From Polytrichum commune (Eukaryota > Streptophyta > Polytrichopsida > Polytrichales > Polytrichaceae), in the NCBI GenBank assembly GCA_950295325.1, contig OX485804.1, positions 63,334,533 through 63,398,532 on the forward strand: 64,000 nt of DNA, given 5' to 3'. This document shows, piece by piece, positions 1,291 through 35,539 of the stretch (position 1 is its first letter; each line of letters begins with the position of its first letter). The notes under the pieces were generated by a model. The model saw only the letters and a list, made by a program, of their open reading frames with translations. It made no database searches and was not told where the DNA came from. The position numbers and the translations under genes were made by a program.

Positions 1291-2879
1291 TGACACTAAT
1301 GGCCACACCAACGCCAACACCAAGAATGAATTAGGGAAACATGATGGTGATCAAATAGCAAGGAAAAAAATGGCGGAGTGAGCTCCGAGAGCTGAGTGAG
1401 GGATAGGAAGTCTGATGGCCGCTTGTGCTCCTGCAAGAAGGTTGTGAGCAGATCTCTACGCACAGGGTGATGCCATCGCCGTAGAGACTTCTTCACGATA
1501 TTGTTTGTAGATCGAAGCTCTCCGGGTGCAGATCGCTGGAGATTGGCGACAAATCTGTTCGAAGATTAGAGTGTTGCAGGGCGAGGTAGGAGGACTGAAG
1601 GAGGATACCGCGACACCACAAATCGAAACAGATCGACCAGTGGATGAAACGTAACGGCCAAGTTGTGTCTCTGAAGTCACCAAAAAAGACACTTGAGAGG
1701 CAGCCATCGCCGAACCTGCCACTCTGAGCGCGATCTCCGAGGAGACATCGCCGAAACCTGTCTTTTAGCAAGAATAGTCCTGCTGTGAATACTAACGTAG
1801 AGATCTCGTAGAATCACACCTCTCTGTGCAGATGTTGTCTCGCAGAAGCGGCATTGATAAAGCGAGGACTATACGAAGTAACCGCCGCGGAGACAACACT
1901 GAAAATTGACTTGGGGTAAGTGTAGATCTGGGTGTAGAAGCTAAAGTGATATCACAGGGATTACTTCGGTGCAGATCTGTCAAAACCGACGCTCAGGTAC
2001 AGGTGAACCTCACACTACAACGTCGAACCTGGGTGCGGACCTCACACATCAGGTACAAAAGTTTTTTCCTGTGCAGACACCTCCGCTTCTACATCCCCGA
2101 ACTACCCACGGCAGCATCAACCCGGTCGCCCCCAAAGGTACAGCCACTGCCGAATCACACTCCCAGTCGACGAAGCCTGAAGCAGAGACAACGCGTAAGA
2201 GGCCTCTTCAAAGGGTGAAATCCCCGGGGTGCAGATAGAGCTGTAGCTGTGCCGCATAAGGTGACGCCCCCAGACACAACGACGTTACACCAGCAGCACC
2301 GAAATCTCTCCCCCGAACTCCCCCCTGTCCACACTGCTACTTCACCTAACCAAACTGCAGCCAAACCAGAAGAAGACTGTCGAAGCCAGCTCCAAGCAAG
2401 AGGGTGATTCCAAACTGCTAGGATAAACTTCGAGGGAGGTGACTGAGCTAATCAAGACCGACAACTGCTAGGAGAGAGTGCAGCCCCAAGCGAAACAGAC
2501 CCGAAGCCCATACTGAGCGTGCTGGGGGGCCGAACAAGCAGATTGGTACACTGCAAACAACGGATTTGACACTTGGGGCTGCACCAACACCTAGCACGCC
2601 GGACCTGATAAGCTTACATACACCCCACTCAAGCATAGAAATGTACTGTGAGTGGTTGTGAATGGTGTGTTGATCCTGGAAATGCAACTATCCTAATAAC
2701 CCAAGTCTGAAGCGAGCTAAATGGGCTAGGAATGAGTGTTTGGCAGGCCTAGAGGATATGCAACCACCAGGATCTAACACCAACCACAACCATCCTCACA
2801 TACACTAGCTATGCTGCTTCGGGTAACACACGGCCTAAGCTTACCTACCCCGACATAGCCTCCAATTGACCGACACCGA
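1290..2879 (+). other. GC-richer leader, possible 5' UTR of the retrotransposon
   Basis: This stretch is clearly richer in G and C than its flanks. It repeats short phrases such as GTGCAGAT, GTAGAGATCT and AGAAGC at irregular spacing (for example near 1,527, 1,827, 1,970 and 2,230). Short open frames occur on both strands but none resembles a known protein or fits ORF1. It may be the internal promoter/5' UTR of the element, or unrelated DNA into which the element inserted. I cannot find a target-site duplication that would settle this. Confidence 0.3.
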
Positions 2880-3362
2880 ATGAGCATCAACATCATCACC
2901 ACCTTCAAACCTACACAAGCATCAACACAAAGTCAAGAGGTAACTCACCCAACAAAGGTACGCTACTCCCTCCTTTGTAAAATTTTCCTTTCCTTTGTTT
3001 TTCCCACAATAGATAGAAACATAAACATCATATTGTGCAAAAACCATGTAACTATCCACAAACTCCTCTACTACAAAGCCCCACTACACGCGTCAGTGGA
3101 AAGTAGAGGAACAAAACCAAAGCAAACAAATAGCCTCACCAAACCAAACAAAGCATTATGTCCAATCCTCTACACTAAACCAATCAAAACCAACCTAATA
3201 GACGAAATTAATCTCACAATTTGTAGAATCAAAATAACAAACCAAACAAATAAAAGCTCTAATCTCCTCTACAAAACCCGTTTGCACGCGCAAAAGGAAG
3301 GAGGAGATAAAAGCATCACCTTACAAGCTTACCATAACATTAACAAACATTGTGCTCAATAG
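2880..3362 (+). other. Open frame directly upstream of ORF1, in the same frame
   Basis: A 160-codon open frame ends with TAG at 3,360-3,362, directly abutting the ATG of ORF1 at 3,363 in the same phase. The translation has no recognisable domain and reads like non-coding sequence. A stretch at about 2,958-3,013 looks like a short intron (GTACGC at the start, pyrimidine-rich tract, AATAG at the end). More likely a leader than a protein, but the stop-start arrangement is worth noting. Confidence 0.25.
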
Positions 3363-5141
3363 ATGGCAAACAGAGGCAAAGCAGTACATGACGCCATCAT
3401 GAGAAGCCCCATTGACACCAACATGGAAGATACAGAAGACACAATGGTGATAGAGACTACCCAAACCAAGAGGGCACAAGAAGCAAAGAGAGGTAGCAGC
3501 TCAAGCAAAAGGAAGAAGAACGCGGAGCTTACAACCGGATTGAAAGACACACCGAAAGACTTTTGGCTTGGAATCATGGCTATGGAGAAGCTCGCTATCA
3601 ATGAAGGGGTAAAAACCAAAGACTGTAAGCCATCAATGAAGAAGGAGGACCTTATAGAAATGGGCATATCCGAGGGTGAAGCAGAGGAGATGAGTCAAAC
3701 TTACAAGATCGCATTCCCACATGTGAAGCAACTCCTCTACCCACTTGAGAGGCCCGATGGAAAAGGTGGGCAACATTTTAACTTAACTCAATTACCCATT
3801 GAAACAGAAGTCGATCCGGGAACCGAACTTTCTCTTAATTACCACATAGCTGTCTACTTTGAAAGACCATCAACAGACTATACTCATAATGAGATACTCA
3901 CCAAGGCAACAGCTAGACTAGCATCCATGAGCATCGAACTGGGGATAGGACTAGCGGAACCCATTTACATCCCATGCAAAGAAAAAGAGAAAAACAACAA
4001 AATCAAATTATGGTCAGGGACCATTAAGATCCATCTCAAAAATCCTAGAGTTGATGGCATTGGCATGCTTAAGGGGCTACGCCCCTTCATCTTGACACTA
4101 GACAAAACCAACACTCTAGGAAAAATTTGCAAATGCTACGACTCCATTGCTAGAAACACATTGCTTTCTACAAAAATCGAGAACCCCAAGCTGCACCTCG
4201 TCTCCTCTAGTGAGCTACAGAGAGATGTGCTAATAGAGAGTTTTAGATGTGGATATGACTATGAGATTGCTAGTGTGCAAAAGGTCAAAGAGGAAACATG
4301 GGGATGGCTCATCTCAACCACGCCAACACAAGCAAACATAATCATTCAATACCTTGTTCCATACAAACAAGAACTCATGCATGTAATCACACCACAAACA
4401 GCTAAAGCAGAGAGAAGAAGCCGTGGAGAAGGACTCACAGAAGACGAAATCAAAAAGAAGAATGCCACCATGCTATGCCTTTATGGTCTTCACAAAATGA
4501 AGAAAGTTGAAGATACAAAGGACTCCATCAAAGCAGTCCTAGGTGAGCTCAATGTTGCATCTTTTTACTTCCCAGGGCAAGTAGGTGATCTCCACAAAGG
4601 CACGGCCAATGTACAATGCCTTAATGCCATTGTCTATAGACAATGGGTAGGCAAGACAGTAGAGATCTTTGGTAAGCATGTGAGCTTTACACCACACCCA
4701 AAAAGCTTGCAAGGAACACTACCACCCACCAAGGAGGAGCAAGAAAAACTTGGGTTTTGTGACATGTCCACAGCAATTGCGGATACACTTGAGGCAACTC
4801 GCAATGCACCGCAAAACAAAGGGAAAGGTAACATGATCACACATGACGACCTAGATGCATTAGTTGAAACTGCCATGGACAAAAGAAATGGACAACTCAT
4901 AATTGAGCTCAAATCCGAACTCACAGCAGAAATACACAAGGAAATGGGTGACTTCAAAAAGGAGGTGTCTTTGGAAGCAGATGTTCGAGAGGAAAGAATC
5001 ATCCGAAACCTGACAACACACGTCAAACAACAACTGACGGAAATTCGAAAACAACTTGCACTAACATCACAAGCGGTTAGCATGACAACAAAAGCACTAG
5101 ACTCCATTCTAGCCCCAACACAACCACAATTGAAAAACTAG
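3363..5141 (+). CDS. Retrotransposon ORF1 protein (592 aa), RRM-like and coiled-coil
   Basis: An intact 592-codon frame from ATG to TAG, the best preserved part of the 5' half. The N-terminus (residues 1-55) is charged, with a basic cluster near SSSKRKK that could be a nuclear signal. The middle has alternating beta and helical stretches. Residues about 368-450 follow the beta-alpha-beta-beta-alpha-beta order of an RNA-recognition motif, with LCLYGL as a possible RNP2-like strand and GTANVQCLN as an RNP1-like strand. Residues about 500-580 are heptad-like and rich in E, K, L and Q, fitting a trimerising coiled coil. ORF1 proteins of LINEs bind the element RNA and assemble RNPs with ORF2; that role is inferred from position and architecture. 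I do not recognise a close family member. Confidence 0.7.
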   Translation: MANRGKAVHDAIMRSPIDTNMEDTEDTMVIETTQTKRAQEAKRGSSSSKRKKNAELTTGLKDTPKDFWLGIMAMEKLAINEGVKTKDCKPSMKKEDLIEMGISEGEAEEMSQTYKIAFPHVKQLLYPLERPDGKGGQHFNLTQLPIETEVDPGTELSLNYHIAVYFERPSTDYTHNEILTKATARLASMSIELGIGLAEPIYIPCKEKEKNNKIKLWSGTIKIHLKNPRVDGIGMLKGLRPFILTLDKTNTLGKICKCYDSIARNTLLSTKIENPKLHLVSSSELQRDVLIESFRCGYDYEIASVQKVKEETWGWLISTTPTQANIIIQYLVPYKQELMHVITPQTAKAERRSRGEGLTEDEIKKKNATMLCLYGLHKMKKVEDTKDSIKAVLGELNVASFYFPGQVGDLHKGTANVQCLNAIVYRQWVGKTVEIFGKHVSFTPHPKSLQGTLPPTKEEQEKLGFCDMSTAIADTLEATRNAPQNKGKGNMITHDDLDALVETAMDKRNGQLIIELKSELTAEIHKEMGDFKKEVSLEADVREERIIRNLTTHVKQQLTEIRKQLALTSQAVSMTTKALDSILAPTQPQLKN

Positions 5142-6655
5142 GTTGGAAAAACAACCACATAGCCCACCCACAAAAAGTGTGTATCCACACAAAAAAAGAG
5201 AAAAGAAGAAGGAGAAAAAGAAAAGAGAACAACCCAATAGCATTTGGAAATACTAACAATAAAGAAACAAAACAAATAAAAACAAATAAAACCAAAGCAT
5301 TCATAAATGCTTGCGCACAAATACAAAAACAAAAACATCAAAAACAAAAAATACCAAATCAACCAAAAACAACAAATAAAACCAAAGCATTCCTAAATGC
5401 TCTCACACAAGAACATAAAACAAACCAACAACAAAAACAACCAAAACAAAACATCCCAAATCAACCAAAAACAACAACAAATAAAACCAAAGCATTCCTA
5501 AATGCTCTCACACAAGAACATAAAACAAACCAACAACAAAAACAACCAAAACAAAACATCCCAAATCAACCAAAAACAACAACAAATAAAACCAAAGCAT
5601 TCCTAAATGCTCTCACACAAACACATAAGATAAAACAACAAAAACATCAACAAAATATACTAAAAACAACAACAAATAAAACCAAAACATTCCTAAAAGT
5701 TCTTACACAAGAACATAAACTAAACCAACAACAAACACAAAACATACCACATCAACCAAAAACAACTAATAAAATCAAAGCATTCCTAAATGCTTCCGCA
5801 CAAATACATAAACTAAAACAACAACAAAAACATCAACATCGACAAAACATACCAAATCAACCAAAAAACAATAACCAAACAAAAACACACCCTAAAACCA
5901 AAGAAACAAACCAACTCAACATAATAAACCTAACTCCACACACAAAAAGATACAAAACGACAACCATCAAATACCAAAATCAAAAGAAAATTGGAACAAA
6001 CCCACAAAAAATAAAACGGGCATGGCCAACCATAGTAAACCACACAAAAAAACATACAAACCCTAGCACCATCACACTCCCTTCAAAAAAAACCCCAAAA
6101 CATAAAAACAACACAAAAAAATATCAAACACAACGAAACAATAAAAACCACCTAAAACGGGCTTGGCCTACCGGCCTCGCCCAAAACCAAAAAACCAAAA
6201 TAAAAAAAGCAAAAAAGCGAAAACACCAACACATAACCACACATATCAACAAACAAACACATCAAAGAAAAACAAAACACCCAAGTCATATAACAAACCT
6301 AAACTCTACAAAAAATCATAACAAACAACAAAACCCAAACCAAAAAAAACAAGAAAATCCTCCCATAAAACAAACACTCTCCCCACACCTAAAACTAACA
6401 CTTAGTGGAGATATCAAAACCTCACCAAAAATAAACCCAAACCTTACAAATAAACACCAGGAAAAGGTAAACAAAAACATAAAGTCCCCCCACAAAGCTA
6501 AAAACACACAGAAAAAGCCAAAAATATACAAACTACAAAAGACGATAGGTAAACAAAAAAACACAACTAACTACAACACCCGTACCAAACAACCAGATAA
6601 ACATGTGCTAAAAAACAACCCTATAATAATAACAAAGTTTCCTACTATAACCTAG
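5081..6655 (+). CDS. K/N/Q-rich repeat ORF with a degenerate 2A-like tail
   Basis: An open frame without an in-frame ATG at its beginning; it overlaps the end of ORF1 by 61 nt in the -1 frame and ends at TAG 6,653-6,655. Its first part has six in-frame repeats with a core like NKTKAFLNALTQEHK. The later part contains two RAWPT motifs (about 6,020 and 6,160) and, near 6,397-6,435, LTLSGDIKTSPK, a decayed relative of the 2A motif at 7,431-7,475. Translation could come from termination-reinitiation, -1 frameshifting near AAAAAC at 5,133-5,138, or fusion to the downstream frame before decay. No enzymatic domain is visible. It may be a basic, disordered RNA-binding or linker segment of the retrotransposon; that function is a guess. 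Confidence 0.45.
   Translation, partial: HDNKSTRLHSSPNTTTIEKLGWKNNHIAHPQKVCIHTKKEKRRRRKRKENNPIAFGNTNNKETKQIKTNKTKAFINACAQIQKQKHQKQKIPNQPKTTNKTKAFLNALTQEHKTNQQQKQPKQNIPNQPKTTTNKTKAFLNALTQEHKTNQQQKQPKQNIPNQPKTTTNKTKAFLNALTQTHKIKQQKHQQNILKTTTNKTKTFLKVLTQEHKLNQQQTQNIPHQPKTTNKIKAFLNASAQIHKLKQQQKHQHRQNIPNQPKNNNQTKTHPKTKETNQLNIINLTPHTKRYKTTTIKYQNQKKIGTNPQKIKRAWPTIVNHTKKHTNPSTITLPSKKTPKHKNNTKKYQTQRNNKNHLKRAWPTGLAQNQKTKIKKAKKRKHQHITTHINKQTHQRKTKHPSHITNLNSTKNHNKQQNPNQKKQENPPIKQTLSPHLKLTLSGDIKTSPKINPNLTNKHQEKVNKNIKSPHKAKNTQKKPKIYKLQKTIGKQKNTTNYNTRTKQPDKHVLKNNPIIITKFPTIT
5272..5870 (+). repeat. Six in-frame tandem repeats of 90-105 bp
   Basis: Copies are anchored at 5,287, 5,377, 5,482, 5,587, 5,677 and 5,770, with periods of 90, 105, 105, 90 and 93 bp. 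All periods are multiples of three, so the reading frame is kept through every copy (30, 35, 35, 30 and 31 residues). Copies 2 and 3 are almost identical, which suggests recent expansion. Confidence 0.9.
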
Positions 6656-7010
6656 ACCTGATAACACTACCTAATGCCAACATAATAACACAACAAAGTA
6701 ACAAAAAAGATAAGTCAAAAGAAAGATCACCCAAACTTAAACAACAAAAAAATACAAATACAACATTTCATAATACTCCCACACGAACAAAACAAAAAAA
6801 AATAAAAAAATAAGCACGACAGCCCAAAACAAAACAATAATGCCTCAATAAACCCTAAATATACAAAAACACCCAACATCACAAAAAACAAAATACTCCT
6901 TAATAAATCTGACCGAATAAAACAAAAAATAAAAAACAAAACAAAACAAAAAATCCCAATAAAAACAAAGACAGACCTTTCAAACAAACACAAGGAAAAG
7001 AAAAACATAA
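6656..7010 (+). other. A/C-rich interval between retrotransposon ORFs
   Basis: Extremely A-rich sequence with several stops in all forward frames and no recognisable motif. It separates the end of the repeat ORF from the open frame that carries the intact 2A-like motif. Confidence 0.4.
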
Positions 7011-7430
7011 CCAAAAAACACATCCAAAAAACTAAAAACCCATACAAAAAACCAAAACCGTACAAAACAAAAAAAAACAATAAAGAAACAAACAAACACA
7101 CCATACACCACCCAGAAAACAACAAAACATAACATTACCCTACTCCTCTCAAAGAATTTTCCAAAACACCAAAACAAGAAAACACAATATAAAAAACCAA
7201 AAAACCACCTAAAACAGGCTAGACCTACCAGCCTCACCCAAAACCAAACAAACAAAATCAGAAAAAGAAACCAATACAAAACCACGTATACCAAACAAAC
7301 ACAAAATACCAGTAAGCACCTAAGTCACATAACAAACCCAGACTATAAAATAATAAATAATAACAAACAAAGATACACAAACTACAATAAACGAAAAAAC
7401 CTTCTCATAACCCAAACATTCTCCCAACAC

Positions 7431-7475
7431 CTACTACTACTACTTAGCGGAGACATTAAAACCAACCCAGGACCC
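7431..7475 (+). other. 2A-like (StopGo) ribosome-skipping motif
   Basis: The frame reads LLLLLSGDIKTNPGP, followed by an ATG codon at 7,476. The NPGP ending, the G-D at -8/-7 and the hydrophobic leucine run upstream match the 2A consensus D-V/I-E-x-N-P-G-P, except that the Glu is Lys. In 2A peptides the ribosome skips the last Gly-Pro bond, releasing the upstream protein and continuing downstream. 2A-like motifs are known at the N-termini of several non-LTR retrotransposon proteins. Here it would separate the upstream leader from the endonuclease/RT polyprotein. The AAA (Lys) could derive from GAA (Glu) by one G-to-A change. Activity is untested. Confidence 0.7.
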
Positions 7476-8006
7476 ATGCCCAATATACTACAGGCACACC
7501 CGTCCACACATAAAAACAGATGCAAAAGATATTTCATAGAATGCACAATCAAATTACAACATGAATATCAACACCTAGCAAAACAATTCTCTCCTAGCAT
7601 AAACTTAACACATCCAAAACACCAAGACACAATTGTAGAATATCCATACCTATCAAGATACATTTATCAAAATCAACACCACCCACCCCCACGCATGCTG
7701 TACGCACTGGTTACCACAATAAGCCCAGTAATAAAAACATGCAACCATATACTAATACAAACACCAGAACCAGACTGGACCACAATAGTTTTAGAACGTA
7801 TGGCCGCACTCCAAAACCCACCCGAAAGACACATCACAACCACACACCTATATACACAATTCCTACAAACAAATCCAGGTATTATCAATCCACCTAATAC
7901 CATTCACAAAGAATTATACAACTTCATCAAACAAAGCAATGAACCACTAACCATACAACTAATGACAGATAAATTCCCCTTTCTACCAGAAAAATTACTT
8001 ACATAA
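7476..8006 (+). CDS. Segment between the 2A-like motif and the endonuclease
   Basis: A 176-codon segment from the ATG directly after the NPGP codons to a TAA at 8,004-8,006. The same frame is open back to 7,011 and resumes immediately after the TAA, so the stop is probably a lesion within ORF2. The protein is rich in His, Pro, Thr and Asn with no domain I recognise. It may be a spacer or an additional nucleic-acid-binding region of the polyprotein. Confidence 0.4.
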   Translation: MPNILQAHPSTHKNRCKRYFIECTIKLQHEYQHLAKQFSPSINLTHPKHQDTIVEYPYLSRYIYQNQHHPPPRMLYALVTTISPVIKTCNHILIQTPEPDWTTIVLERMAALQNPPERHITTTHLYTQFLQTNPGIINPPNTIHKELYNFIKQSNEPLTIQLMTDKFPFLPEKLLT

Positions 8007-8930
8007 TCATTAAAACACAAAGAACCATTACATGAATATTCCCACCCCCCACCATTATCCAACACACCCACACTATGCCCCCAAGAAAATCAGATAACAA
8101 ATCACGGCACGCACATAATCACATGGAACGCTTCATCACTAAACACAACCCTACCAAACCTACACAAACTAATATCAAATACACCAAGCAACCCAGCAAT
8201 TATCACTATACAAGAAACCAAATTAACTGCAACAAAATTCACAAAGTACATACAAAATTTATTTCCACAATACAAACTAATATTTAACAATACGCATTCC
8301 CTAACAAGATGTATACAACAGAGAATGCCATATACACCTGCAAGAGGTGGACTCCTTACACTCATAAACAAAATATACGCATACCCTGGCAACATCACAA
8401 AAATCCCCACCCCAACTGCAATATCACCATACCTACAAATAATACAAATAAACAACCAACCTCTCCAACCGTGGTTAATAATACACATATACATGCCATC
8501 ACACGAAGAAGATATAAGACTTATACCAACAATACAACAAAACATAACACAACAAACCACTAATCACCCAAACCACATATACATTTTATGCGGAGACTTC
8601 AATAGAGACATAGCTCTAATTGGACGTCAAAATGAATACATCACAACACCACCACAAATAGAAGATATAGAATGGAATATATTTATGAACAACCTCCAAC
8701 TCACATACATCCCCACGAATAGCTCATACTCTAGACAAGGTGGTCCGAACTATAACCAAACTAGCTTAATAGACGGATACTACATCAAAATACCCAACAA
8801 TGCCCTATACACATCAACCACAAATAATGACCACAACCTCAACTCAGACCACTCTCCAGTAACACTACATATACCACCAAATATATTACTAGCCCGATGC
8901 ATGCCACCAATAACAGATAAACCTCCATGA
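8007..8930 (+). pseudogene. Apurinic-type (APE) endonuclease domain of ORF2
   Basis: In the ORF2 frame the exonuclease-endonuclease-phosphatase signature appears in order: TWNASSL at about 8,121 (N-terminal strand with Asn), IQETKL at about 8,208 (metal-binding Glu), RGGLLTL at about 8,340, CGDFNRD at 8,589 (the GDFN motif), and NSDHSPV near 8,839 (catalytic Asp-His). This is the target-nicking endonuclease of APE-class LINEs; it cuts the bottom strand for target-primed reverse transcription. It is bounded by the TAA at 8,004 and the TGA at 8,928. All catalytic residues survive. Confidence 0.85.
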
Positions 8931-9653
8931 ATACTAAACCCTATCCCACAAGGAAATATTGAAAAATTCAAATCAGAATTTTTTGAAGAAAATGCACTCC
9001 AGGTAAATGAACTCACAAATACACTAAAAAACGACCAAATAACAGAAGATCAATGGCAAACATCTTGTACAAAACTAGACCATCTAATACAAAAGATTTC
9101 TAACAAAATCCAAAGCACATGCAGTACACCACCCTCCCAAATCTCACAAACCGCACATCACAACAAGGAGGCTTTCTACCAAGAAAACTCCAAAAAAAAA
9201 TGGAAAAACCATCTCTCCACCTACCACCTAATCAGAAAAGCAATTTACCTCATAAAAAATTCTCCAAACTGGCCAACACATCCAATAATAGAAGAGCTAA
9301 AAAACCATACCCAAGTTGCTATCCCACTCCCCCCAAATCAAGAACCTAATCAACATGAATGGATAAAAATAGTTTCCACAATAGCCAAAACCGCAAATAT
9401 ACATGCGCGAAAAATTACAACAAAATACACCCAAGACTGTGTCAAAAAAGAAATATCTAAATATAGGCAATTATATGAAAAGAGTCCAAAAAAAATCAAC
9501 AAAAAAATCTTCAAAAACCAAGAAACATCCCCATTCGACTGCATCACAGATGAACACAACAATATACTTACGAACCCAGTAGATATCGCCAATAAAATTC
9601 ACAAACAACAATCAATTATCAATAAACCCACAGTACCAACATGCTATCACTAG
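8931..9653 (+). pseudogene. ORF2 linker between endonuclease and RT
   Basis: The ORF2 frame stays open from the TGA at 8,928 to the TAG at 9,651. The charged, helix-like translation resembles the connector found between endonuclease and RT in other LINEs (segments like QDCVKKEISKYRQLYEK). No catalytic motif. The uninterrupted frame over about 240 codons supports one ancestral polyprotein. Confidence 0.6.
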
Positions 9654-10757
9654 CCAGAACACACACCATATTGTACATGCGGAGTAAGACAATACCCATG
9701 GCATGACCTTGACGGATTTGTCCTTGACAAAAGAGGGAACCCACAAACTTCATTACATAAATACTTCGACAGAGAGACATATGACATTTGCCTTAAAAAT
9801 CTACCAAATAACAAAACACCCGGTCCCGATAAAATTCCTAATACAATCCTAAAACATATGCCCGAAAGCTTCCATACAGTACTCTTTCTATTTTTTTCTC
9901 ACTGTTACAAACAAAAACAAATTCCAACATCATGGAAAATAAGCCTAACCATACTTTTATATAAAAAAGGAGATCCCTCAAAATTATCAAATCATAGACC
10001 AATCGCACTCGCAAACACAATATACAAATTTTATACGAGTACTCTAACATTCATAATGTCAACATACGAAGAAAAATACCAAATATTACACGACAGTCAA
10101 GAAGGATTCAGAGCAGAAAAAAGCACGTCCAGACAACTCCAACTCCTCATAGCAGTACTAGAAGATGCAAGATTTACAAACCAAGACATATACCTATTAT
10201 ATATCGACTTCAAAAACGCCTTCGGCTCTCTCGACCACGCAAGACTATTAGCGATAACAAAAGATTTAGGTTACCCAGAAGATGTTGTGACCTTAATAGG
10301 TAACATTTACTCCAACTCCAATACCATATTCACCGGAGAACACTTTGGAAAGACAAAACCAATACCAATACAAAGAGGCACAATACAAGGCGACACATTC
10401 AGCCCATACCTCTTTCTAATATTTTTGGAGCCGCTACTAAGATGGCTACAACAAGGGAAAAATGGATACACATTTGGTACATCCAAACTAACAATCAGCT
10501 CAGCAGCATACGCCGACGATCTAGCAGCTATCACCAACAACCTCCAATCAATACAAATCCAACTAAACAAATTAGACAAATATTGTAAATGGTCCGGAAT
10601 GGACCTAGGAATACCAAAATGTGCCATCACAGGATGCCCAAATAAATCAAAAACAAAACCTGAAACATTCAAATCCAAAATCCAAGCCCAAAATATCAAC
10701 TACAGAAACCAACCCCTACCCATTCTACACCAAAACGAACCATATATATATATTTAG
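9654..10757 (+). pseudogene. Reverse transcriptase domain of ORF2
   Basis: Canonical non-LTR RT blocks are visible: KTPGPDKIPN near 9,813 (block 0/1), the PTSWKIS and LLYKKGDPS region (block 2), NHRPIALANTIYK (block 2a/3), YIDFKNAFGSLDH near 10,200 with the first catalytic Asp, QGDTFSPYLF near 10,386, and YADD at 10,509-10,520 with the two catalytic Asp. It copies element RNA into DNA at the nicked target. The frame ends in a (TA)n run at 10,742-10,753; the expected YLGI motif then continues in another frame, so this is a slippage lesion. Confidence 0.93.
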
Positions 10758-11423
10758 GCATACAGTTAGTACCTTCACTAAAATGGAAGCTCCAAACACA
10801 CATCACTCTAGCCAAAATAGTAGACCAATGCAAACAACTAACAAACTGCCCAGCTACAATCAAACAAAAAATAAGCATGGTGGATACCGTCATCAGAGCC
10901 GGTATAGCCTATAGCTTCTATGCAGTTCCATACTCATTACCAACCATAAAGAAATTAGACAAAAAAATTACTGGAATCCAAAAAATAATTTGCGGTCTAC
11001 CCAAATGCACAGCAAATATAATAACCCAACTGCCACATGACCTATTTGGATTAGAAGCCTTCTCACTAAAAAATGCATACCTTAGATGTATTAGCGAATA
11101 ACTTAGAAACGCATTAAATGACCCCGGTAGATTAGAAATAATATACAAAAGACTTATACAATATATACTAGCCAAACATGGAGGAGCAGAGGACATACAA
11201 AGAATTAAATACCAAGATTGTACCAGATCACCTACAACACGAACACTATTTCTTATGGAAAAAAGAATGAGGGACCCATCTCAAAAGTATAGAAACAAAC
11301 TTCCAACTCCATAAGACAGAACTAGAACAAGAATGGAGAACACAAGTCACATCTGTACTACCACAACTAAACACCGAACTATCTCTTAAATTACTACACA
11401 AACTCCTAATCCACAACCACTAC
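10742..11423 (+). pseudogene. RT thumb / post-RT region of ORF2
   Basis: After the TA-repeat frame change the translation continues with YLGIQLVPSLKWK, the usual YLG block after the RT palm, then a helical thumb-like region (IKQKISMVDTVIRAGIAYSF). A stop lies at 11,099-11,101. A further frame change near 11,230-11,270 is needed to follow the reading to about 11,423, where homology-like reading is cut by the AT-rich insertion. Confidence 0.7.
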
Positions 11424-11854
11424 TAGAGATTGTGTACAATCTAGACATGTAACAAGATATTTATTGAAGTAAACAAAGACGTGACCTAATAGCATATATT
11501 ACTAGAAAGTGTGTTGTCTACGACATGTCTTGGGGGACTATGCCCTACACCCCAGGGATCGTCTATTTGGACATAGCCAATATGTTTAGGACCATTGCTT
11601 ATGATGTCTAAATATACTAAAAGTTTTACGGGCTCCACACTAAATTATTACTTAACGTTAAAGCGTGCATGTATGTGTAGGGTTATCATTGGTTGATATG
11701 TTGAATAATGAGTGGTCTTATTTTATAACAAATGAGTGTCATTTAAAAGAGATATCCACCATTAGTAAGTCCAATCCTCACCTCCCGAGCCTTGCCATCT
11801 ATAAACACCTATAGTTCTAAGTGCCTAGACACTTACCTAGTAGGCTAAGCCAAA

Positions 11855-11937
11855 GGCGGGGGGGCCAAGGGATTTGATCCTTGAACCTCTTGGCTCCCAC
11901 ATAGAGGCCTTAGCCACTAAGCCACTACACCGCGCAT
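11855..11937 (-). mobile_element. tRNA-derived SINE-like sequence
   Basis: On the minus strand a perfect pol III A box (TGGCTTAGTGG) is followed by a perfect B box (GATCAAATC), with spacing close to that of a tRNA gene. The sequence does not fold into a proper tRNA acceptor, so a SINE head is more likely than a functional tRNA gene. The body and 3' end are not defined. Confidence 0.5.
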
Positions 11938-11959
11938 GATATATTAGAAGTATTTAAAA

Positions 11960-12660
11960 CATTTGTATATAGAGGCCCCAAGTTATTATTTATTTTTTAT
12001 TTACTGTATACAATATAATAACAACTATATACGGTATATATCATGTACTATCTATTATTTACTGCTTATAATTTATTATCCAGTATTTGTTGTATACTGC
12101 CTATTATTTATTGTTAAGTATACCATATTTTCTATTTTTAACCTCTTATTTACTGTTTATAGTTTATTATTTATAGTATTATAGTATGTTATTTATAGTA
12201 TGTTATTATTATCTATTGTATATAGTATACTATTTACTATTTATGGTATGATATTTAATATTTATAGTATATTATTACTATTAATGGTCTGATGTTTCAT
12301 ATTCAATATTTAATATTATTTTCAGTATGTTATTATTATCTATTGTATATAGTATACTATTTACTATTTATAGTATGATAGTTACTATTTATAGTATATT
12401 CTTACTATTAATGGTCGTCTGTTTATTATTTATAGTATATTATTATTATCTACTTTATATAGTATATTATTAATTACCTCCAGTATGTTATTCTTATCTA
12501 CTGTATATAGTATATTATTTACTATTTATGGTATGATATTTATTTTTATATTTTTATATTAGTTCTATTAATGGTGTGCTATTCTTATTTACTATTTAAT
12601 GTGTGTTATTTTACTATTAACGGACTTTTATTTGTTATATACTGGAAAATGTCTATTATT
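11960..12660. repeat. AT-rich minisatellite
   Basis: Irregular tandem variants of a 25-35 bp AT unit built on phrases such as TTATTTATAGTATGTTATTATTAT and TATTGTATATAGTATA. It has no coding potential beyond spurious Tyr/Leu-rich frames. It lies in the insertion that splits the retrotransposon. Confidence 0.8.
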
Positions 12661-12739
12661 TACTGTGTACATGATTTTCCACATATGCCCTAGAAATTAC
12701 CGACCATAATTCACACAAGCTATTGGACAAATTGTTTGA

Positions 12740-12775
12740 TTGTTTATAGGACGATGTGAGTCGTCCTATAAACAA
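12740..12775. repeat. Perfect hairpin, 15-bp stem and 6-nt loop
   Basis: Arms 12,740-12,754 and 12,761-12,775 are exact reverse complements around the loop TGTGAG; the core arm is GTTTATAGGACGA. It lies near the right end of the insertion and might be a subterminal structure of the inserted element. Confidence 0.8.
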
Positions 12776-12917
12776 CATCGGGGCGTCAATGTGTCCACAA
12801 TGACTATTTTCCAACACTTATACTAGAAACATGTCGATTTTTTTTTTTCATGAAGTGTTGGTCCAATTAGCACATGCATGCTAAAACACTGTACTAAAAA
12901 CCCTTGTTTCTCTTGTA

Positions 12918-13690
12918 GTGAACATACAAAAAATAAAACACATTTCCCTTCCCAATGGCATCCACTTAATGTCGCCAAAAGACTTTCAAACTTATTATAA
13001 AACACCAACAAAATTGAAAAAAAATGCACTACATATAGCAGAACAACTTTTTTGCCACCAAAGCTGTAATCAAAATTGCCCAAACCCATGTAATAGACAC
13101 CCACAAGCCCGCACACTCAAAGCAAGATACATATCAGACAACAGAGAACTAACACCCAGAATACCAGAAAACCCCTTACACCCACCACTACCACAACAAC
13201 CCCAACAATCTAATCCACCATTCAACATAAAAAATAACCCACTCAGATTCCCCATACACACTATCCTAAATCACAGACCAAACATAACAATAGATAAGTA
13301 TAAAATAACCAAAAAATTCAACACATACCTATGCAAATGGTCACTCCTAAATAACATAACATATAACAAATGGATGCCACAATCTGAACTCTTCCCATTG
13401 AACCAACCTATAGTAATTGAACACAACACTAAACTACTAAAAGAATATTACACGAGACATCAACACAATTAATACAAAAACATCGTACATACAAATCTAA
13501 CCCCCACACAAAACAAAGATCCAAGATTTATACCACCACCTACAATATTGCCACTCACCCAAATATCAGTAACAGAATGCAACCCAAAAAAAGACATCGC
13601 CACTATAGAAAATACTATACATATACAAGACGAATTAACGCAGATATATGAAAACACCTCATCATTATCCCAACCACCAGACTAAAATGG
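12918..13690 (+). pseudogene. ORF2 segment with Cys cluster after the insertion
   Basis: The A/C-rich coding style resumes in one frame from 12,918 to the stop at 13,470. It includes a cysteine cluster near 13,060-13,100, CHQSCNQNCPNPCNRH, spaced C-x3-C-x3-C-x3-C, that could bind zinc. The same frame is open again to 13,683, then a frame change joins it to the intact 3' part. No family assignment is possible by eye. Confidence 0.55.
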
Positions 13691-15985
13691 TTGTGGCAAC
13701 AATACAACAAAGACAGATACAACACACATAATCTAGTACCTCCCCCACAATCATTCAAAACAGAAATAGTATGGCTCTACCGAAGATATAACTCTAAAAT
13801 ACCGAAAAAATACCCACTAAAAATATCACAACACACTCTCTCACAAAATCTTCTGGACTCCATCACAAAAACACTCAATATCTCACAATCATACTTCTCC
13901 TCACCAATAACATGCTCTATACATATTACAAAATTCTACTCCCCATTTGCAAGAGACAAAAAATTTGGATCACTAGGCACCGCCTTCCAATACAAATGGA
14001 GTGGAATTGGATACGCCCACCCACACAATGAAGAAATGACCCAACAAGCAATACATTGGGCAAGATTAGCAGCCAAAAATGACCCAAACACCATCACACT
14101 ACTAGTCACACCGGACATTAACTGGTACCAAAACTACTCACCGCACACCGGACCATTCCCTGACACACATGTCCTAGCCCACTTCACTGCAGATACCATT
14201 ACATATGATGAACCAACAACCCCCCAAAACATAAACAAACCACGAATAGAATCATTAGCAATACATATCTTTTGTATCCACCACCAAAACCACACCATCG
14301 GCACATCCAACCAAATGGACACAATTAAAAAAACAATTGAAAATCTACAAATAACACAATATCAGATACAAAAGGCTCCACCTACACCCCTCAACACACC
14401 CGTAAACAAAAACACTAGATGGAACAAACTACTCTACCCACCGCATACCAACCCCTCAACCCCAAATATCCCACCGTTACCAAACTATGAAACTAATACT
14501 ACACTCAAATTTCCACCACAATACAGTTACTACACAGACGGCTCATTTGTTCCACCCATAAAAGCTAATGACGGACAATGGAAGAAAGAAAAAGCCGGAT
14601 ACGGAATTTACAACCCAACAAAAGCAGACATATGTATATCAAAAAGATTGCCTGGCCTACAAACTTGCTTCAGGGCCGAACTAATGGCTATACATAAAAC
14701 ACTCAGACTAATTACTACCAAATACCCAAATGAACCCGCACATATATTCACGGACTGCCTCAACTGTATATACGTACTTAACACACAAATAAAACACCCT
14801 ACACACCATAACAACCATGCTGACAAAGCCATATTAACATCTATGGTAGAAATGCTAAAAAGCCGAACACAACTCACTACGATACACAAGGTGAAAGCAC
14901 ACACCAACATTGCTGGGAATGAACAAGCAGACCAACTAGCCAAACAGGGCACCAAAAAAAGATATAGATTTGTTGTCAAAATATACGAATTTGCACACAC
15001 CACACCATACTACTTCCAAAAAGACACATGGCCTGGACCAAATAAACGACCCGACAAAGGCCCCGTCAGATGCATCGAAACATACATCAATAAACACGAC
15101 CGCGATAACAACCTAAAAAAACTATCAGAACAATTCCCCAACATTAGCAAATGGACAATGAACCCTGATATAGATAATGAACTATCCAACAACTTCTGGT
15201 CTAATCCTATGATAACAGACTCACAAAAAACATGCCTACTCAAATTCCGAACGGGACAATACATGGGCAATGCCAGAAAACAATTATTCTTTGGCATAGA
15301 AAGATTTCCATCGATCACATGCCCAATTTGCAACTCCTCCGATGCAGATATATGGCTACATGTACTACTAAAATGCAACCAACACCATATACATGCCCTT
15401 AGAACCAAAAGACATAATAAAGCAGTATGGGAACTAAGAAAACTAATTCTATCATCACAAAAATCAAGATGTTACACCCTCATGAATGCAGGGACATTCA
15501 ACAACAACCCACAAGAGAATACAGTCCCCACCTGGCTCTTACCATGTACATGTACACAACAAAGATGCCACTGCAACGCCAGACTCAAACCCGACCTCCT
15601 GTGTATGAAAGAACTCCCACATCAAAATACCGCACCAACACACCCAACAGACAACTTCACGGTACAATTGATTGAATTCACATATACAAACGATAGATTC
15701 CCACAGGATACAATTAACAATAAAATCCAAAAATACCAACCACTAATCAATGACATCATCCAGCAAGGTTGGAAAATAGATCCACTTATAGTCATCACGG
15801 CTGGAGCCAGGGGAACCACACACGCCCCATCAATGAAACAACTAGAACAAGCATTTAAAATACCTAAAAATCTTACAAAACATACATTTAAAGAAATAAA
15901 CACTATTGCCATACAATATGCTAGTTCAATCCTCCTACATAAAAGACGTATCGAAAACAACCAAGCAGTACCAATAGAAGAATAA
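13691..15985 (+). CDS. Intact 3' part of ORF2: MTase-like, RNase H, CCHC, RLE
   Basis: A 764-codon uninterrupted frame; it lacks a proper ATG at its beginning and is the surviving C-terminal part of ORF2. In order: a Rossmann-like region resembling PCIF1 methyltransferases (13,935-14,300), RNase H (14,520-14,975), a CCHC finger (15,319-15,375), and a restriction-like endonuclease core (15,581-15,850). It ends in consecutive TAA codons that merge into the 3' (TAA)n tail. Its intactness, next to a badly broken 5' half, is notable, although no start codon or promoter suggests independent expression. Confidence 0.75.
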   Translation: MWQQYNKDRYNTHNLVPPPQSFKTEIVWLYRRYNSKIPKKYPLKISQHTLSQNLLDSITKTLNISQSYFSSPITCSIHITKFYSPFARDKKFGSLGTAFQYKWSGIGYAHPHNEEMTQQAIHWARLAAKNDPNTITLLVTPDINWYQNYSPHTGPFPDTHVLAHFTADTITYDEPTTPQNINKPRIESLAIHIFCIHHQNHTIGTSNQMDTIKKTIENLQITQYQIQKAPPTPLNTPVNKNTRWNKLLYPPHTNPSTPNIPPLPNYETNTTLKFPPQYSYYTDGSFVPPIKANDGQWKKEKAGYGIYNPTKADICISKRLPGLQTCFRAELMAIHKTLRLITTKYPNEPAHIFTDCLNCIYVLNTQIKHPTHHNNHADKAILTSMVEMLKSRTQLTTIHKVKAHTNIAGNEQADQLAKQGTKKRYRFVVKIYEFAHTTPYYFQKDTWPGPNKRPDKGPVRCIETYINKHDRDNNLKKLSEQFPNISKWTMNPDIDNELSNNFWSNPMITDSQKTCLLKFRTGQYMGNARKQLFFGIERFPSITCPICNSSDADIWLHVLLKCNQHHIHALRTKRHNKAVWELRKLILSSQKSRCYTLMNAGTFNNNPQENTVPTWLLPCTCTQQRCHCNARLKPDLLCMKELPHQNTAPTHPTDNFTVQLIEFTYTNDRFPQDTINNKIQKYQPLINDIIQQGWKIDPLIVITAGARGTTHAPSMKQLEQAFKIPKNLTKHTFKEINTIAIQYASSILLHKRRIENNQAVPIEE
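13935..14300 (+). other. Possible PCIF1-like methyltransferase domain in ORF2
   Basis: The translation shows FYSPFARDKKFGSLGTAF, then WSGIGYAHPHNEEM, then LLVTPDINWY and FPDTHVLAHF. PCIF1-type RNA m6Am methyltransferases have a very similar order: FGSLG at the start of the Rossmann core, an NPPF catalytic motif, then a strand ending in P-x-W. Here the NPPF position reads AHPH, so catalysis may be lost or altered. This is a fold-level resemblance noticed by eye; a profile search is needed. Confidence 0.4.
14520..14975 (+). other. RNase H domain of ORF2
   Basis: All type I RNase H residues are visible in order: Asp in YYTDGSF (about 14,529), Glu in FRAELMAI (about 14,674), Asp in IFTDCLN (about 14,745), and the His/Asp pair in KAHTNIAGNEQADQLA (about 14,895-14,942). 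It degrades the RNA strand of the RNA/DNA hybrid during reverse transcription. It is a known domain in several LINE clades, including Dualen/RandI and plant L1 lineages. Confidence 0.92.
15316..15850 (+). other. CCHC finger and restriction-like endonuclease (RLE)
   Basis: CPICNSSDADIWLHVLLKC gives C-x2-C-x9-H-x4-C, the zinc knuckle that precedes the RLE in R2-type elements. Downstream are RLKPDLL at 15,581-15,601 (the PD of the PD-D/ExK core), QLIEFTYTND near 15,664 (the acidic strand residue) and KIQKYQPLI near 15,722 (the K-Y helix), then a strand-rich tail with VITAGARG. This order matches the restriction-like endonuclease of early-branching non-LTR elements. The PD-to-E spacing is longer than usual, as if a loop were inserted. 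Together with the APE domain upstream it makes this a dual-endonuclease element. Confidence 0.75.
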
Positions 15986-15997
15986 TAATAATAAATA
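15983..15997 (+). repeat. (TAA)n, probable retrotransposon tail
   Basis: Four consecutive TAA units overlap the ORF2 stop. Simple TAA or A-rich tails mark the 3' end of many non-LTR elements, so this is the best candidate for the 3' boundary. Confidence 0.55.
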
Positions 15998-16139
15998 CTA
16001 AAAAGGTCATTAATGGACCACTATTTATTGAATAATATGAACCCCTTAGCTCAGGAAGATGGGAAGGAGCCGGTTGGTTGGTACAATTTTCCTGCCTACA
16101 AATCACTAGCAACACCAAGTCATGTATAACACATTAAAC

Positions 16140-16240
16140 GCTCAGACGGACTCAAAGGGAATCGAACCCGGACCGTCTAAAGTGTAGTACAAACATCCTC
16201 CCTCAACCAACCAAGGAAACATGACTTGGCAACCACCAAC
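16140..16240 (-). mobile_element. tRNA-derived SINE-like sequence
   Basis: On the minus strand a near-perfect A box (TGGTTGAGGGA) is followed by a perfect B box (GTTCGATTC) in the context GGTCCGGGTTCGATTCCC. It resembles a tRNA gene from the D arm to the T arm, but the acceptor stem does not pair well. A SINE head or decayed tRNA gene directly downstream of the LINE tail is likely. Confidence 0.5.
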
Positions 16241-16796
16241 ACTACAAAATACATCATATACTACAAACGCAACGAAACCTCTCACTAAATAACTACGGTG
16301 GGTTACTTTTACTCGTTTTCTGGTTACTATAGTGTCCATCCTCGAAAGGGGAGAGTAGTATTGTCCCAATTTCCCATTGTCTGGTAGGCATTGGGTCATT
16401 TGACAATACGAACGGACACTTCATTCATGCCAGCCCCTTTAAGGGACCGGAGTTTCTATCTATGAATTAGGAAAGCATAAAACATCTCACTTCGAGGGGA
16501 GACGGAGGTACTCAAGCGTGTCATATTGCCATGTCAAGAGAGTGCATGGGTACCAATGTAATTCATCAACCAAAAGACTGTTCTTAAACCATCAAGGACA
16601 AAGACAACCGACCAAACAATGCTTGCAAAAGTTTTTCCAAGACCATCGAACAATTAAGGTAGATGTGCATCATTCGGTGCCTACTCTTAAACATACACCT
16701 ACATTGAGTGGTTTATGATTGGATGCGAATTATATTATGGACACCAAAAAGACATGTGTTGAAAAGATACTGGACTACATGTTCAAAAATTGTTAT
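16241..16796. other. No recognisable gene
   Basis: Unremarkable intergenic sequence between the SINE-like piece and the MITE. Short open frames show no domain. Confidence 0.5.
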
Positions 16797-33461: not shown

Positions 33462-35539
33462 CGCATACTACCTAACCGCCAAAAAGAGCCGGCCTCCGGG
33501 ATGCCCCAAAAGAAAGAGTTTTATAAAGGAAATTGTGTTTCAAGTTAAGTTAAGTATGTAGAACTACATAATGAATCTTACAGCATGTGGAATCAATCAC
33601 TCGTGGGGAGCCGCCAGACGCCTCCACTGCAGTCTGCAAGTTGATCGATCTCTCTCTCTCTCTCTTTCTCGCACGCACACACACACACAATTTAATTACT
33701 TCACTTCCCTTCACTGCGATGTCATTCTGTAATCTAGCCTCCTCAGACCTAGTCTGCCATTCACTTTTCTCCTGGAAGCTGTCTGTCCGTTCTCGGAGCC
33801 TCAAGTGGTAATTAGTACTCGCAGTACTTCTTACAACAAGCTCTGCAAGCAAGCAAGGGTTGGCAGACTAGACAGCCTCTCCTGTCCTCTTCTTTATGTC
33901 CCTCCCCTCCTGCTCTATATATGTTTTCCCACCAGGCGACCTTTCCCTCCTCCTCTGATTCATCATTCATGTGCAGCGTCACATGATCGATCCATCAGTA
34001 GTACTGTCTTGACTTCGTAACTCATCTGGACACATTTGAGATCAGCTTCCTCACTCTTTGCTCAGCTCATCAGGGCTTAACCAGCTAGCTAGCTGCAGGG
34101 GTAACCTACAGGACCTAGTCATCGATTGCCGCCATATCGACCTCCAGCATCTCGCTGGAGTACTAGTACTGGGACGAGATCCCTATCTGCAGAAGGAGAG
34201 GCGCTGTTAGCTTTGATCATGCAATGTTCAATCGTTTTAGTCAACTGTAACCACGTCTTGTGGCATTGGACAGTGATCCCATGGAGTAGGTAGTAGCATA
34301 TACACGTAAGTACTACATTGTTTTTATTTCCTTCTTCAGCTCCCCCGCCAATATCCCACCCCTGTGCAGGAAAAATTAGGTTAGGTCAATGCTCATGCTG
34401 AGGAGTTCATTGTATCTGCGTAAGTTGTTTATGCCTACAGTTCGAACAGGTGCACAGCTGCAAAATCCCCCTTTTGAGTATTTGCGGAGACTGTGAGGAG
34501 GAGCACTACTGGCTCATGTGGAGTAATCTATGGTGGAGAAATGTTGCACTTATAATCACCACGGCGCCGGCAATGCTACTTGTCGTGCAATCTTCGAGCT
34601 AGAGCCATCGACATAGCTCATCAGGTTCGTCGAGCTTTCTCACTTGATCTTATTGTAATCCCCCATTTCCTGGGCTTCTCTCCGGTTGAGATTGTCTTAC
34701 TACTTGACAAGCTGCTACTGTGCTGTTTTCCAAGTGTGATGTTTTCACAGAGTCAGCTTGGCTGATTTGAAGCATGTCCATGCTTTCTCAGCTGAGGTTT
34801 TAAGTAGCTAGAGCTCCGAAGCTACCAGCTCACTCCACTCGAGTTACAAATTGGGTCCTTGCAATACATTGAGGCGTTATATGACAAGAGCTTGTTTAGC
34901 TGATGCCTTTGTGATCATGCGTTTGCAAGTTGCAACATCTTTTCGCTGGGAGGGTAACACGTTTGTTGGGAATGGATATACCTATTTTGAGGGAACCGAA
35001 AAATCCTTAACACCGTTGCAAAAACGCCAGAAATGTATTCATGTCTGCTGCTGCCAAAAGTGTACAAGGAAATTGAGCACTTGAGAGCCTTGTCAACTGG
35101 CCTTCAAATAATCCTATAACCGTCGCAAAAACCTCATCATCTTGTTCGTCTTCTGTTGCTATGAGTCAAATATGTGTAATTTGTACCAGTTGAGGTTAAT
35201 ATCTGCTTTGACAACCTGCCGTATAGTACTTTTCGAAGCGTGAGTCTTGACAGAGTACTCAGCTTGGCTTGAAATTAGCACGTCCATACTTGAAATCAAA
35301 TCCCCGCGAAGCCTGCCCTTCGATGAGCTGCTACTGTTGTACATAATGCCAGCATATACATATCCTGCCGGACATCAAGAGTTGATGCTATTTCTGTCTC
35401 CTGCAGGAACACATTGGGCCATAATTTGTAGCCAGGGAGATTGAGCACTTGTTAAGCGACCCTGTGCAATATGTCTTGTCAACCGGCCTCCAAATCTGGT
35501 ATACAAGCTAATCGTCCCTCACAAGAGTCCCAGCTTAAG
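33462..35539 (+). promoter_or_regulatory. Upstream and leader region of the lectin gene
   Basis: Contains pyrimidine/CA microsatellites at 33,645-33,690 and a TATA-like CTATATATG at about 33,914, a plausible promoter if the gene has a long, perhaps spliced, 5' leader. Segments near 35,066-35,110 and 35,443-35,500 are diverged copies (both contain GAGCACTTG and GTCAACYGGCCTYCAAAT), so the leader has been partly duplicated. No TATA box is evident immediately upstream of the ATG. Confidence 0.35.

Follow-up and report, generated by a model that had tools for sequence, protein, structure and literature searches.

Long interspersed nuclear elements (LINEs) with both an apurinic/apyrimidinic endonuclease (APE) and a restriction-like endonuclease (RLE) are already known as Dualen/RandI. 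In the excerpts available, Dualen is given as a LINE group with both nucleases (PMC4640811, PMC3636483) that occurs in Chlamydomonas and its relatives (PMC8226300) and in cryptophytes (PMC12747079), and a table of plant LINEs assigns RandI to green algae and gives its tails as (ATT)n or (CTATTT)n (PMC3747384). According to the same partial sources, the proposal that APE replaced RLE during LINE evolution rests on Dualen (PMC4640811 / PMC3636483). For land plants, the accessible part of a transposon review names L1 and RTE as the only plant LINEs (PMC9033089), and comparable extracts treat oomycete and plant retrotransposons (PMC5348765) or mention LINE-1 and LINE-2 of Physcomitrium with no clade stated (PMC7466625). 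Among the titles and abstract openings listed from the open-licence literature, none dealt with a land-plant Dualen, although such a report may still have been published. Here, we analyzed a 64,000-nucleotide stretch of the moss Polytrichum commune (contig OX485804.1, positions 63,334,533 to 63,398,532; hereafter the window) and a LINE that it contains. This element is very probably a degraded copy from a large dual-endonuclease LINE family with recent activity, which encodes an ORF1 protein (from the first open reading frame, ORF) and an ORF2 polyprotein.

Architecture, copies and constraint of the family

An initial annotation had read positions 8007-15985 as one ancestral reading frame with an APE-type endonuclease, a reverse transcriptase (RT), an RNase H and a C-terminal finger with a restriction-like core. 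As presented in Table 1, this stretch lies within the element and is part only of a larger decayed LINE of ~15 kb, at about 1336-16461, whose 5' limit is less sure than its 3' limit; the full extent also takes in ORF1 and is interrupted by a 1,503-bp CACTA transposon, recognised as a homology gap at 11418-12920. The APE, RT and RNase H were each confirmed by Pfam, the APE motifs being located at 8121 (TWNASS), 8208 (IQETK), 8490 (YMPSH), 8592 (GDFNRD) and 8844 (SDHSP). The parts that the annotation had not included are ORF1, a 2A motif, a tentative chromodomain-like fold and a PCIF1-like domain. No Pfam family matched ORF1 above the cut-off, and the ORF2 frame overlaps its end. In the window copy, the ancestral ORF2 frame now has internal stops and frame breaks.

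We searched the 408 Mb of the genome for further copies. With a C-terminal protein query, all of the best 58 scored among 6,994 candidates matched, and we retrieved five copies nearly in full, eight 10-kb stretches, one 4-kb stretch and then eight further 4-kb stretches. Intact copies, which the annotation had suggested seeking in related genomes, were found in the same genome: six run from before the 2A motif to the end of the RLE as a single open frame of 2,625-2,924 codons (Table 1), as expected from one ancestral frame. The divergent copy C5:33.4M lies within a 2,372-codon open frame, which was read from within the APE as far as the RLE. Interrupted or partial copies are c2_9.0 and L016-L022.

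Three of the open-frame copies, of 2,625 codons each, share 99.0-99.1% identity over 10.7-12.0 kb, and in all three a 12-base word recurs immediately behind the (TATC)n tail. One or two bases at the start of this word could be part of the tail, and we therefore give the target duplication as 10-12 bp. In c2_42.8, another 12-base word from around the tail likewise had a match at a different place in the copy, and single words can therefore match by chance. The exact 22-base 3' end of the family occurs 848 times in the genome (415+433; reversed-pattern control, 0), and the window end at 16443-16464 differs from it by one mismatch (shuffles, 0). Copies are scattered over the chromosomes, and the duplicated target words differ between them.

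Both nucleases are found together well beyond the open-frame copies. Using one RLE and one APE protein as queries, we compared the best 134 of 5,741 RLE candidates with 141 APE rows (140 scored of 1,196 candidates). For 74 of the 134 listed RLE rows, the same strand carries an APE row 5.2-7.4 kb upstream (median 5,526 bp), and the controls with reversed order or opposite strand gave 0. Among the family members, the APE profiles PF14529 and PF03372 were matched in 8/8 and 7/8, respectively.

The ratio of nonsynonymous to synonymous substitutions (dN/dS, method NG86) was then considered for two open-frame lineages, c1_17.9 and L014, with dS of 0.4-0.9. It was 0.07 for the APE, 0.05 for the RT, 0.08 for the zinc-chromodomain region, 0.13 for the PCIF1-like domain, 0.06 for the RNase H and 0.09 for the RLE, compared to 0.49 for the leader before 2A. 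Between the more diverged c1_17.9 and c1_40.9, whose dS is close to or past saturation, values of 0.05-0.15 were obtained for the APE, RT, PCIF1-like domain, RNase H and RLE; near-identical copies had too few changes for this measure. The low ratios of both APE and RLE indicate strong purifying selection, and the two nucleases have therefore been kept functional over the same time. Overall, we consider as established from sequence the architecture, the copy number and the single open frames, together with purifying selection on the enzymatic domains, the 10-12 bp duplications and the (TATC)n tail, and the dual-nuclease interpretation of the initial annotation is supported.

Table 1. Features of the LINE in the window, and single-open-frame copies elsewhere in the genome.
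Feature	Position	Strand	Remarks
Candidate 5' target-site duplication, 10 bp	1326-1335	+	Repeat right after 3' tail at 16462-16471; weak alone; post-tail placement as in three other copies
ORF1, 592 aa from ATG	3363-5141	+	Other copies carry a related ORF1
GC-rich RNA hairpin motif, GGCC-TACC-GGCC core, in leader before 2A	6159-6182	+	Worn second copy at 7216-7239
2A-like ribosome-skipping motif GDIKTNPGP	7449-7475	+	Other copies: GDIEPNPGP, GDIETNPGP, GDIESNPGP
Conserved domain between 2A and APE, no fold assigned	7476-8105	+	One stop in window copy
APE-type endonuclease	8109-8924	+	Pfam Exo_endo_phos, 1.8e-7
APE-RT linker, same frame	8931-9653	+	
Reverse transcriptase	9669-10742	+	Pfam RVT_1, 2.8e-25; YADD at 10509-10520; homology continues in broken frame to about 11417
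Non-autonomous CACTA transposon, 1,503 bp	11418-12920	.	Ends CACTAC...GTAGTG; 3-bp duplication AAC; inserted into LINE
Cys-rich stretch (from 13053) and tentative chromodomain-like fold (about 13266-13460)	13005-13472	+	
PCIF1-like (cap adenosine methyltransferase) domain	13652-14470	+	Pfam; NPPF replaced by HPHN at 14018-14029
RNase H	14483-15016	+	Pfam, 3.3e-15; limits approximate
C-terminal finger and predicted RLE	15104-15985	+	CX2CX9HX4C finger at 15320-15376; KPD from 15587; E in 15671-15685; K..KY in 15716-15736
3' untranslated region (UTR)	15986-16461	+	Ends GGGACCGGAGTTTC, then short (TATC)n tail
Open-frame copy c1_40.9	C1:40.9M		2,919 codons
Open-frame copy c1_17.9	C1:17.9M		2,625 codons
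Open-frame copy c5_35.1	C5:35.1M		2,625 codons
Open-frame copy c2_42.8	C2:42.8M		2,625 codons
Open-frame copy L014			2,924 codons
Open-frame copy L015			2,663 codons

The coding strand has an extreme composition over window positions 5081-15985 minus the CACTA insert, with 46% A and 9.5% G. In addition, copies with 99% identity over their coding part (L006-L011) differ at the 5' end: the stretch, up to about 2 kb long, that separates the target duplication from the shared sequence is unrelated among them, which suggests 5' UTR exchange or template switching.

Affinity of the RT and predicted fold of the RLE

The best PDB matches of the RT profile were R2 proteins (111 and 104 bits), compared to 75 bits for a human L1 entry. 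We built a maximum-likelihood tree from 16 sequences (family, 8; R2, 3; L1-type from the same genome, 4; human L1, 1). In it, the family and R2 split from L1 with support of 100/99, and the L1-type sequences of the moss joined human L1. R2 was monophyletic (93/92), and the family occupied a long branch (1.56) adjoining it. This tree is unrooted, has long branches and is without Dualen, RTE, I and CR1; it therefore speaks against L1 membership and gives no placement in a named clade. With respect to the position between RLE-only and APE-only groups that is expected of Dualen/RandI, what this tree shows is a grouping of the RT with R2, away from L1.

For the C-terminal region, the initial annotation had proposed a CCHC finger and a PD...E...K core, which we locate at 15320-15736. 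The motif was borne out and an R2-type fold is predicted; a sequence-profile match was not obtained. An AlphaFold2 model of 15104-15973, built from nine family members, reached a predicted local distance difference test (pLDDT) of 68-84 over much of the core. Foldseek placed R2Tg first (E 2.6e-3, prob 1.00) and R2Bm second (E 0.016, prob 0.99) of 448 matches, with PD-(D/E)XK-type cap-snatching nucleases next in rank. With VIA-align, the top 7 entries were all R2 (Z 8.9-10.2 over 188-208 residues, root-mean-square deviation 4.0-5.1), the next best being a Holliday-junction resolvase (Z 7.0). Lower down, the list included spliceosome entries matched over chain residues about 1480-1752; we take these to be Prp8, which is known as an RLE relative. 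The P-D, E and K columns were invariant in 9/9 aligned family sequences, and the motif is also present in the divergent L029 and L030. Taken together, these models predict an R2-type finger and RLE fold at the C-terminus.

Several results weigh against a dual-endonuclease family. The RLE is unrecognised by sequence, with no relevant match among Pfam profiles or PDB sequences; the mean pLDDT of its model is low (56), and no Foldseek match reached E 0.001. Among the matches listed, 60/134 RLE rows have no APE row; these may be 5'-truncated or have their APE beyond the matches listed. In the pair c1_17.9/c1_40.9, where dS is near or beyond saturation, the zinc-chromodomain region was less constrained (dN/dS 0.41, with 0.50 for the leader). 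Of the five copies tested for target duplications, three had a duplication of 10-12 bp next to the tail, c2_9.0 had none and the window only a 10-base repeat.

Among other readings, the one that keeps most weight, though it is rather unlikely, is that of a lineage separate from Dualen/RandI which gained or kept both nucleases independently and would form a new dual-nuclease clade. The distinct ORF1, 2A, chromodomain-like and PCIF1-like parts and the long RT branch beside R2 are consistent with it, as is the lack of any relative in scans of viral contigs, where algal LINEs are hardly to be expected (18 pattern loci there had no tblastn match). However, the domain order agrees with that of Dualen, the set of APE, RT, RNase H and RLE is the same as stated for Dualen in the passages available (PMC4640811, PMC3636483), and the (TATC)n tail is a short T-rich repeat like the RandI tails as listed in the accessible table (PMC3747384).

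It is very improbable that the element is simply a plant L1 in which a zinc knuckle at the C-terminus was misread as an RLE. Plant L1 elements also have an APE, an RT and a C-terminal Cys/His motif, the same genome contains LINEs read as L1 by motif (L024-L027), and no sequence profile recognises the RLE. This reading was nevertheless rejected by the RT tree, which holds no RTE sequence and sets the family apart from plant L1, and by the fold searches ranking R2 first, together with the invariant catalytic columns. Finally, an artefact in which an unrelated RLE element or gene was inserted behind an APE-type LINE, as the broken window copy with its one real insertion might suggest, has hardly any credibility left and was rejected by the six single open frames running from APE through RLE, next to the 74 same-orientation pairs.

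PCIF1-like, chromodomain-like and leader parts

Between the RT and RNase H of the window, Pfam PCIF1_WW was matched above its gathering score (6e-10). The PCIF1 family (PF12237) was matched in 9/9 aligned members and was over the gathering score at all 150 scored genome loci (the best 150 of 698 candidates), whereas a divergent subfamily remained below the cut-off (29.0, 28.8, 26.6 and 16.7 vs 31.1 bits). The sole two matches of a PDB sequence search were both PCIF1, albeit weak (E 0.036 and 0.04), and VIA-align listed PCIF1 entries at rows 10, 11, 13 and 14 (Z 4.6-4.9) with a model of low confidence in this part. According to the portion available, NPPF is the catalytic motif of PCIF1 (PMC8868631). 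We searched for this site in 17 copies; in one of them, c2_9.0, the search expression matched nothing. It was replaced by HPPN, HPHN, HPHT, HPKD or FPTD in 16/16 copies where it was read, and because of this replacement the domain is probably no longer a methyltransferase. An active adenosine methyltransferase that marks the RNA or DNA of the element is accordingly an improbable alternative: the family match in all aligned members, a retained FGSxG loop and the low dN/dS of the domain are in its favor, and the lost catalytic motif stands against them. No canonical host PCIF1 was seen among the best 150 of 698 candidates (top score 55.6 bits), from which its absence is not implied; L022, considered as a possible host gene, was rejected as another LINE copy. 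Among the titles and abstract openings listed from the open-licence literature, we found no report of a PCIF1 domain in a LINE, which does not prove that none is in print.

Upstream of this domain, a three-stranded sheet with a C-terminal helix was predicted (pLDDT about 80). In a VIA second look restricted to the top 1,000 chains of Foldseek, rows 1-9 were chromodomain, chromoshadow-domain or Chd1 entries (Z 5.1-6.0). This range is one that the tool calls common. Pfam matches were weak by sequence and all under the cut-off (E 0.039-0.068, in 2/9 members of A3), an hhalign comparison of this region with three HP1-type chromodomains returned E 0.28, and plain Foldseek on the combined chromodomain and PCIF1 model returned nothing below E 0.13. 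Since the VIA second look and not plain Foldseek listed chromodomains, the modelled fold is tentatively described as chromodomain-like.

The 2A motif was compared in 15 sequences with the consensus D(V/I)ExNPGP, as given in the part of the source available (PMC4981915). It is exact in eight (c1_40.9, c1_17.9, c5_35.1, c2_42.8, c2_9.0, L018, L019 and L021), has K for E in L014-L016 and the window and H in L017, and was not found in L020 and L022. Two consecutive motifs, the upstream one degenerate, occur both in L017 (at 2028 and 2298) and in the window (6407-6427 and 7449-7475), as if the 2A region had been duplicated. Before 2A, a palindromic GGCC-TACC-GGCC hairpin is present one to three times in 12/15 sequences (shuffle control, 0), with none in L016, L020 and L022, and the genome contains 300 occurrences of its 17-base core (0 for the reversed pattern as a control). 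The hairpin is translated in differing frames between copies and therefore seems to be kept as RNA rather than peptide.

An Rfam scan of the window gave no match at the gathering score, and ARAGORN detected no tRNA in 11400-16600. By eye, text resembling tRNA promoter boxes, with B-box-like sequence, was noted on the reverse strand at 11836-11940, in the CACTA insert, and at 16145-16230, in the LINE 3' UTR. Elsewhere in the window, a reading frame with a legume-lectin domain was observed at 35456-36211 (Pfam 3.5e-34). Elsewhere in the genome, fourteen equal-score light-harvesting matches lie within 95 kb (G000, C5:1751760-1846160). Lipid-transfer proteins, a mark of land plants, gave 30 matches among 35 scored candidates. 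For a light-harvesting protein of the genome, the best match was the multi-LHC chain 9vfj (512 bits, summed over two stretches), followed by 8htu and 7xqp (461 and 459 bits), which are ascribed to 'Pp' PSI and Physcomitrium patens (PMC10005731, PMC12589708), and then by maize 5zji (431 bits). Both results point indirectly to a land plant, probably a moss.

Proposed mechanism and comparison with known systems

The transcript would yield the ORF1 protein and the ORF2 polyprotein, in which 2A, as its sequence suggests, would split the leader from the enzyme by ribosome skipping and so release the latter. The enzyme would then consist of the N-domain, APE, RT, Cys-rich stretch, tentative chromodomain-like fold, PCIF1-like domain without catalytic motif, RNase H, and finger with RLE. 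We infer that mobility occurs by target-primed reverse transcription, with a nick in the target, priming at the (TATC)n tail and copying of the RNA. In a division of work, one nuclease, whichever of the two, would nick the first strand and the other would cut the second strand about 10-12 bp away, and the RNase H would clear the RNA. The chromodomain-like fold may bias targeting, and the PCIF1-like fold may bind the capped 5' end of the element RNA instead of methylating it. The complete picture, in which the LINE keeps both nucleases for one strand each and has captured a catalysis-free cap-methyltransferase fold as reader of its own RNA cap, holding the 5' end for completion of the insertion, along with chromodomain targeting and 2A processing, is possible if rather doubtful. 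If true, a single retrotransposon polyprotein would sense both the RNA cap and chromatin; the PCIF1-like and chromodomain-like parts suggest possible routes for a retrotransposon to read them. Moreover, the many copies of this family, its recent insertions and the strong constraint on both nucleases make it possible to test why a LINE would retain two endonucleases and which one cuts the second strand.

R2, the RLE LINE of animal ribosomal DNA (rDNA), is specific for rDNA and is not known to have an APE or an RNase H. The family described here resembles it in RT affinity, RLE fold and C-terminal CCHC finger, and differs in having an APE and in its copies being spread over chromosomes with differing target words. 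The 2A-bearing retrotransposons of trypanosomes and sea urchin, which lack long terminal repeats, belong to other LINE clades, which are not known to have an RLE. In the description available, they share D(V/I)ExNPGP within a retrotransposon protein with the moss family (PMC4981915). The likeness to PCIF1/CAPAM lies in the PF12237 match over the cut-off and the two weak PDB matches; the domain of the element differs by the loss of NPPF and by being embedded in a retrotransposon polyprotein. Plant L1, as outlined in the accessible part of a review (PMC9033089), has an APE, an RT, an RNase H and two ORFs in common with the family, which differs by an RT outside L1, a C-terminal RLE and a (TATC)n rather than A(n) tail.

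The closest system is Dualen/RandI, described in excerpts from green algae such as Chlamydomonas and annotated in cryptophytes. The hallmarks matched are an APE N-terminal to the RT, an RLE, by predicted fold, C-terminal in the same protein, and an RNase H; APE and a PD-(D/E)XK endonuclease thus stand with RT, RNase H and a simple-repeat 3' tail in both. Compared by description only, the family reported here differs in belonging to a moss, a land plant, and in its separate ORF1, 2A, chromodomain-like and PCIF1-like parts, and it is relevant to the idea that, as LINEs evolved, APE took the place of RLE.

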